Source: an uncultured Paracoccaceae bacterium (GTDB taxonomy: Bacteria; Pseudomonadota; Alphaproteobacteria; Rhodobacterales; Rhodobacteraceae). From it: a stretch of 64,000 bases of DNA. Both the position numbers and the translations under genes were made by a program. The stretch lies in assembly GCA_913041145.1 (NCBI GenBank), contig CAJWHE010000003.1, forward strand, positions 1 through 64,000. Direction: 5' to 3'. Below the pieces are notes generated by a model. The model was not told where the DNA came from and did no database searches. It saw only the letters and a program-made list of their open reading frames with translations. This document shows positions 34,577 to 35,853 of this stretch, one piece after another; the first letter of the stretch is position 1, and every line of letters starts with the position of its first letter.

Positions 34577-35758
34577 CTATAACTCTTGTTTAAAAGACTC
34601 TATTAAATCTGTTTTTTCCCAGCTAAACCCGCCATCAATATCTGGCTGACGACCAAAATGGCCGTAGGCTGCAGTTCGTTGATAAATAGGCTTATTTAAG
34701 CCTAAATGTTTCCGGATACCTCTTGGCGTTAAGTCCATCACTTTGGTAACAGCTTTTGAAATTTCAATATCATCAATGATTCCTGTCCCATAAGTATCGC
34801 AAAAAATAGATAAAGGCTCTGCAACACCAATAGCATAACTAAGTTGCAAGCAACATCGACTTGCAATCCCTGCCGCAACTATATTCTTAGCCAAATAACG
34901 TGCTGCATATGCTGCAGATCTATCAACCTTAGTAGGATCTTTTCCAGAAAACGCTCCTCCACCATGTGGAGCTGCTCCTCCATATGTATCAACAATAATT
35001 TTTCGGCCTGTTAATCCAGCGTCTCCATCAGGCCCTCCGATAACAAATTTACCAGTTGGATTAACCCACCAAAGTGTTTCAGAAGTTATCCAGTCGGCTG
35101 GAATAATTTCTCTTATATAGGGCTCAACCACATCCTTAACATCAGATGATGTCATAAGTGGGTCTAAATGCTGAGTTGAAAGTACGATTGACGAAACCCC
35201 CTGAGGCTTACCATCACGATAACGTACGGTCAGCTGAGATTTAGCATCTGGCCCCAATATTGGTTCAGTCCCATCTTTTCGGACCTCTGCCAAGCGACGT
35301 AAAATTGCATGCGAATAATGTATCGGTGCAGGCATTAACTCTGGCGTCTCATCAATAGCATAGCCAAACATTAAACCTTGATCTCCAGCTCCCTCATCTT
35401 TTTCATTAGAAGCATTTACTCCTTGAGCTATATGAGCTGATTGTTCATGAAGTAAGTTGGTAATTTCTACGTTTTTCCAATGGAACTTTTCTTGTTCGTA
35501 CCCGATATCTTTAATACAACCCCTAACAATATTTTCTATCTGCCCCATATGATCCTTGAGCATTTCCTTATCTCTTAAACCAACCTCTCCCCCTACAATA
35601 ACTCTATTTGTAGTTGCAAAAGTTTCTGCGCCAACTCTGGCTTCAGGCTCAGCTTCAATAAAAGCATCCAAGACAGCATCTGATATTCTATCACATAATT
35701 TGTCAGGGTGTCCCTCAGAAACAGATTCCGAGGTAAAGAGATGTTCTTGTTCTTGCAT
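34577..35758 (-). CDS. metK: S-adenosylmethionine synthetase
   Basis: MetK makes SAM from methionine and ATP. The 393-residue protein has [55 protein letters not shown] and [20 protein letters not shown] choose ATG 35758, six bases after GGAG; a TTG four codons upstream lies inside the ribosome site and the riboswitch. The Shine-Dalgarno is part of the SAM/SAH riboswitch pseudoknot, so SAM is expected to shut translation. trmB, a SAM user, follows. Confidence 0.97.
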
Positions 35759-35762
35759 AAGG

Positions 35763-35809
35763 TGCTCCAATGTTAAAAAAAGATCACGTCAGGTAGCCGT
35801 TGAGATCTT
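35763..35809 (-). promoter_or_regulatory. SAM/SAH riboswitch upstream of metK
   Basis: Minus-strand 35809-35763 fits the SAM/SAH class as I recall its consensus: P1 stem (35809-35802 with 35787-35780), loop CAACGGCTACCTGACGTG and, after a short linker, ATTGGAGCA. The GGAGC (35768-35764), which is also the metK Shine-Dalgarno, can pair with GCT-A-CC (35797-35792) to form the H-type pseudoknot. Two departures are a U-U mismatch in P1 (35803/35786) and A where the loop usually has the second U of CUUCC. Binding would hide the ribosome site when SAM is abundant. Confidence 0.88.
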
Positions 35810-35810
35810 A

Positions 35811-35845
35811 CTAAGCCCAGACTCGTAGATAAATTGGGCCCTTAG
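35811..35845 (-). other. Hairpin between lnt and the metK riboswitch
   Basis: ctaag-ccca (35811-35819) pairs with tggg-cc-cttag (35835-35845), nine pairs with a two-base bulge. No T tract follows on the minus strand. It may end or stabilise the lnt transcript just before the riboswitch. Confidence 0.4.
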
Positions 35846-35853
35846 GTCAATAA

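Follow-up and report, generated by a model that had tools for sequence, protein, structure and literature searches.

A probable SAM/SAH riboswitch with two lineage-specific substitutions upstream of metK in an uncultured Paracoccaceae bacterium

Background

SAM-II and SAH riboswitches are ligand-stabilised pseudoknots that control SAM metabolism genes in Proteobacteria. In the SAM/SAH family (Rfam RF01727), the ligand sits between the P1 helix and the pseudoknot and locks the sequence GGAGC to the loop, which hides the Shine-Dalgarno (SD). The described system closest to the locus reported here is the SK209-52 RNA of Roseobacter sp. SK209-2-6 (structures 6YMM and 6HAG). SK209 RNA binds SAH and SAM with a Kd of ~4-9 uM (PMC2864571), and the published occurrences of SAM-SAH are only before metK in Rhodobacterales (PMC2864571; PMC4239095). 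In the crystal structure, numbered as the Rfam model plus 2, the ligand is contacted by C15-G24, G16, U23 and G46, which are C13-G22, G14, U21 and G44 of the model (PMC7367207). Model position 18 (crystal U20) is extruded from the pseudoknot helix without ligand contact, and a dye attached at U20 changes binding little (PMC7367207). In an NMR-based model the same position is flexible and at most joins the neighbouring U-A pair in a triple (PMC10390503).

Results

Identity and position of the element

The stretch of DNA analysed, here called the window, comprises 64,000 nucleotides of contig CAJWHE010000003.1. A preliminary description made from the letters alone had placed a SAM/SAH riboswitch before metK at 35763-35809 and had proposed a covariance-model scan as a check. 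When the 64-kb window was run against 4227 Rfam families with cmscan, RF01727 matched at 35811-35763 on the minus strand over the full model (1-49), with an E-value of 9.9e-7. The score of 45.5 bits, against a gathering score of 40 bits, makes the element a member of the family. The span first given therefore ends 2 nt short of the full model, although what was said about the sequence within it is correct. No competing Rfam family matched at 35763-35811, no SAM-II or SAH riboswitch was matched in the window, and no further RF01727 copy was found elsewhere in the 2.4 Mb genome or in 14 control genomes. A single occurrence of the core CAACGGCTNCCTG is present in the window, where 0.1 occurrences are expected with one mismatch allowed. 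The aptamer sequence is GUAAGAUCUCAACGGCUACCUGACGUGAUCUUUUUUUAACAUUGGAGCA; CCUU separates it from the metK ATG, a gap of 4 nt. The only non-standard pair flagged in the alignment to the model is a U-U at 9-26. The features of the element and its gene are as follows.

35763..35811, minus strand: SAM/SAH riboswitch aptamer (RF01727, model 1-49), by cmscan, above the cut-off
35802..35808, minus strand: P1 5' strand (model 4-10, U9 at 35803), by model alignment and covariation in relatives
35781..35787, minus strand: P1 3' strand (model 25-31, U26 at 35786), by model alignment and relatives
35792..35797, minus strand: pseudoknot 5' strand GCUACC (model 15-20), by model alignment, relatives and crystal structure (PMC7367207)
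35764..35768, minus strand: GGAGC, pseudoknot 3' strand and metK SD, by sequence and near-invariance among relatives
34577..35758, minus strand: metK, S-adenosylmethionine synthetase, 393 aa, ATG start (Pfam PF00438, PF02772, PF02773)

The metK product carries all three S-adenosylmethionine synthetase domains. We place its start at the ATG at 35758-35756, because this codon lies downstream of the SD and agrees with the metK starts of relatives; the TTG at 35770 reported by the ORF lister is a mechanical call within the aptamer. The nearest metK, 99% identical, is in a Rhodobacteraceae MAG, a sister genome, and the next close genes, in Litoreibacter and relatives, are 78-79% identical. The element lies directly upstream of metK. 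The assignment to Rhodobacterales and the proposed control of this gene are both supported.

Intrinsic terminators were searched for on the minus strand of the metK leader and none was found, so that control is most likely translational rather than transcriptional. With a probability of about 0.93, we take the element to be a functional SAM/SAH-class translational riboswitch, with metK under its own predicted promoter. It is a genuine member of a known family and is probably working.

Distribution in the genus and family

The element is present in all four species of the genus, and two of these copies fall below the cut-off, at 39.9 and 37.7 bits. In our Rhodobacteraceae sample it was found in 213 of the 249 genomes at E <= 0.001, with 206 above the cut-off, in agreement with the published restriction to metK in Rhodobacterales (PMC2864571; PMC4239095). 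Calling the class "rare", as had been done for this locus, is thus true of bacteria at large but not of Rhodobacteraceae. The most divergent family copies, L142 (G077, 36.5 bits) and L144 (G075, 28.6 bits), both keep the core.

For comparison of individual positions, 136 distinct aptamers were collected from the genus, the family and named genomes; 135 are true members and one (L113) is a false match. This set is non-random, being made up of the best and weakest family matches and the nearest metK loci. In one case (L090) the fuzzy scan ended early, at a nearby GGAAC.

The ligand site, the pseudoknot and position 18

With A18 bulged, five pseudoknot pairs can form in the window between the loop and the GGAGC of the SD: G15-C48, C16-G47, U17-A46, C19-G45 and C20-G44. 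The significant RF01727 match of the proposed scan confirms the element of the preliminary description. The base following the 5' strand, U21 at 35791, is the ligand-pairing base, and in the model alignment the window has the consensus base at every ligand-contacting position (C13-G22, G14, U21 and G44). Across the ~135 distinct relatives, the positions of the ligand site and of the pseudoknot are nearly invariant, and covariation therefore gives no test of the pseudoknot helix. The double role proposed for GGAGC, as pseudoknot strand and SD, is supported by its sequence at 35768-35764 and by this near-invariance.

The A reported in place of the second U of CUUCC is real and inherited. It is model position 18, at 35794, where the 136 rows have U in 130, A in five and C in one. 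The A carriers are the four members of the genus and Thalassovita aquimarina (L094); the C is found in a different genus (L116). Both L094 and L116 have an otherwise consensus core and metK downstream. In strict pattern searches, 2 of 397 genomes had a base other than U at this position, and 194 of 394 had U. On these sequences, A18 is fixed in the genus and of separate origin in T. aquimarina, so that change at this position is rare but has arisen more than once.

The preliminary description saw in this change a trial of how much variation the ligand site tolerates. That reading of A18 is not supported and is rejected on the published structures, in which position 18 is extruded (PMC7367207) or flexible (PMC10390503) and the bases named as ligand contacts are elsewhere. 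In true members U17 is constant and position 18 is variable, a pattern consistent with the crystal register, in which 17 pairs with A46 and 18 is extruded. Position 18 may not be wholly neutral, given the predominance of U and the triple of the NMR-based model.

The P1 helix and its U-U mismatch

P1, a helix of about seven pairs in the family, has six standard pairs in the window and the U-U at 35803/35786. Among the 135 true members, 132 have A-U, C-G, G-C or U-A at 9-26, against a shuffle mean of ~91; the pair covaries, and P1 is thus a real helix. U-U is confined to the window and two sister species, and the fourth species has G-C. The mismatch noted earlier is genuine and inherited. The predicted P1 hairpin has -7.0 kcal/mol, compared to -11.2 with A-U restored, a cost of ~4.2 kcal/mol in the energy model; the hairpin energy itself is not better than that of shuffles.

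The metK of the sister species G003 differs from that of the window at 33% of fourfold sites, yet all 28 of the 28 inner P1 and core bases compared (12 from P1, 16 from the core) are identical, which has an estimated neutral chance of ~1 in 10^5 (0.67^28). This identity despite the divergence indicates that the mismatched form is kept and is not drifting.

Another reading is that the genus has a retuned variant. Here A18 and the softened P1 would alter affinity, the preference between SAM and SAH, or the speed of folding, and the SAM/SAH level that switches metK off would not be that of other Rhodobacteraceae. U-U and A18 are conserved together in three species. In SK209 RNA, single-atom P1x mutants have ~4-6 fold lower affinity and pseudoknot-weakening mutants ~50-fold or more, and P1x and PK mutations shift the Kd from 11 uM into the range of 42-1000 uM or more (PMC10516623). 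However, no ligand contact is altered, and A18 occurs with a fully paired P1 in L094, so that the two changes are not coupled. We regard retuning as unlikely. The softer P1 could lower affinity somewhat.

Less likely still is a decaying riboswitch, with the SD and parts of the aptamer retained in the genus and tight ligand control lost. Such decay could account for a U-U mismatch in three of the four species, for the two sister copies under 40 bits, and for the additional C24 to A change in G002. Against it, core and P1 are identical across the 33% fourfold divergence with every ligand contact kept, and within the model a longer linker is the main difference between G003 and the window. The C24A change, in the extended P1 of the G002 copy (L003 308-355), may not be real, since the poor quality of this contig makes a sequencing error likely. 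The contig has very low coverage, and its metK frame appears broken at codon 33, yet the match runs on over 1184 nt.

A predicted promoter upstream of the aptamer

The upstream DNA of 134 relatives was aligned on the aptamer. The motif TTG[AC]C-N16-18-TA is present in 99 of them, 94 with a spacer of exactly 17, compared to a mean of 1 and a maximum of 4 in shuffled upstream DNA, and its end is nearly always 14-21 nt before model position 10. In the window, the predicted elements are as follows, and all four genus members have their equivalents.

35845..35850, minus strand: predicted -35 element TTGACC, from the motif in relatives
35822..35827, minus strand: predicted -10 element TACGAG, lacking T at -7, from relatives and the alphaproteobacterial promoter type (PMC8407463)
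35812..35817, minus strand: predicted transcription start zone, 4-9 nt before P1 (35808), placed from the -10 element

The last base of the -10 element, which the search left unconstrained, is T in none of the 99, and loss of the T at -7 is a reported habit of alphaproteobacterial promoters (PMC8407463). A generic promoter scan reported no promoter at the metK leader, because it demands this T. A literature search for this group returned no mapped metK start sites. As predicted from sequence conservation, this promoter would start the metK transcript a few bases before P1.

In the fold of lowest energy for the 98-nt leader, upstream UAAGGGCCCAAU (~35833-35844) forms a long-range pairing with AUUGGAGCACCUUA that would hide the SD without ligand. 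This alternative is very unlikely: its energy is no better than that of shuffles (z -0.5), it is not preserved in L003, and it depends on a strand within the -35/-10 spacer that would be absent from the transcript of the conserved promoter.

An inverted repeat adjoins P1 and spans the promoter spacer (arms 35811-35819 and 35835-35845). It lies mostly in promoter DNA and its hairpin energy is not better than that of shuffles. Compared to the window, G001 (L002) has one compensatory and two compatible changes in it, and G003 and G002 have differently shaped hairpins. The repeat may act as an operator or a read-through hairpin, or may be due to chance.

Discussion

For the favoured reading, a translational SAM/SAH riboswitch, the following sequence of events can be proposed. 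metK would have a promoter of its own directly behind lnt, and its RNA would begin only a few bases ahead of P1. At high SAM or SAH, we infer that the ligand adenine pairs with U21 and is stacked with P1 on one side and the pseudoknot helix on the other; the loop GCU and CC would then hold the GGAGC, and translation of SAM synthetase would be blocked. At low ligand, GGAG would be free. A18 is bulged from the pseudoknot helix and should have little effect. The U-U mismatch lies five steps below the ligand; it would make P1 less stable and might reduce affinity to a modest degree or accelerate unfolding. As read from the alignment, both lineage-specific substitutions are outside the ligand pocket and probably of limited consequence.

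The locus contributes natural variants to a family whose structure has been solved. The occurrence of A and C at the extruded position, next to an invariant U17, favours the crystal register, in which 17 is paired and 18 is not. Within our sample the U-U is found in this genus alone, and it suggests that P1 can soften near the loop while the element is retained. The predicted promoter would place the aptamer right at the 5' terminus of metK transcripts family-wide, which bears on models of co-transcriptional folding.

Compared to known systems, the element shares with SK209-52 the P1 helix, the CAACGGCU-CCUGRCG loop, the H-type pseudoknot with GGAGC as SD, the place directly before metK and the Rhodobacteraceae host. 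It differs in the A at the extruded position (crystal U20), the U-U in the second P1 pair from the loop, and an AT-rich P1. The metK leader of T. aquimarina has the same A18 before the same gene, but its P1 is fully paired, with A-U at 9-26. SAM-II and SAH riboswitches differ from the window element in both sequence and fold.
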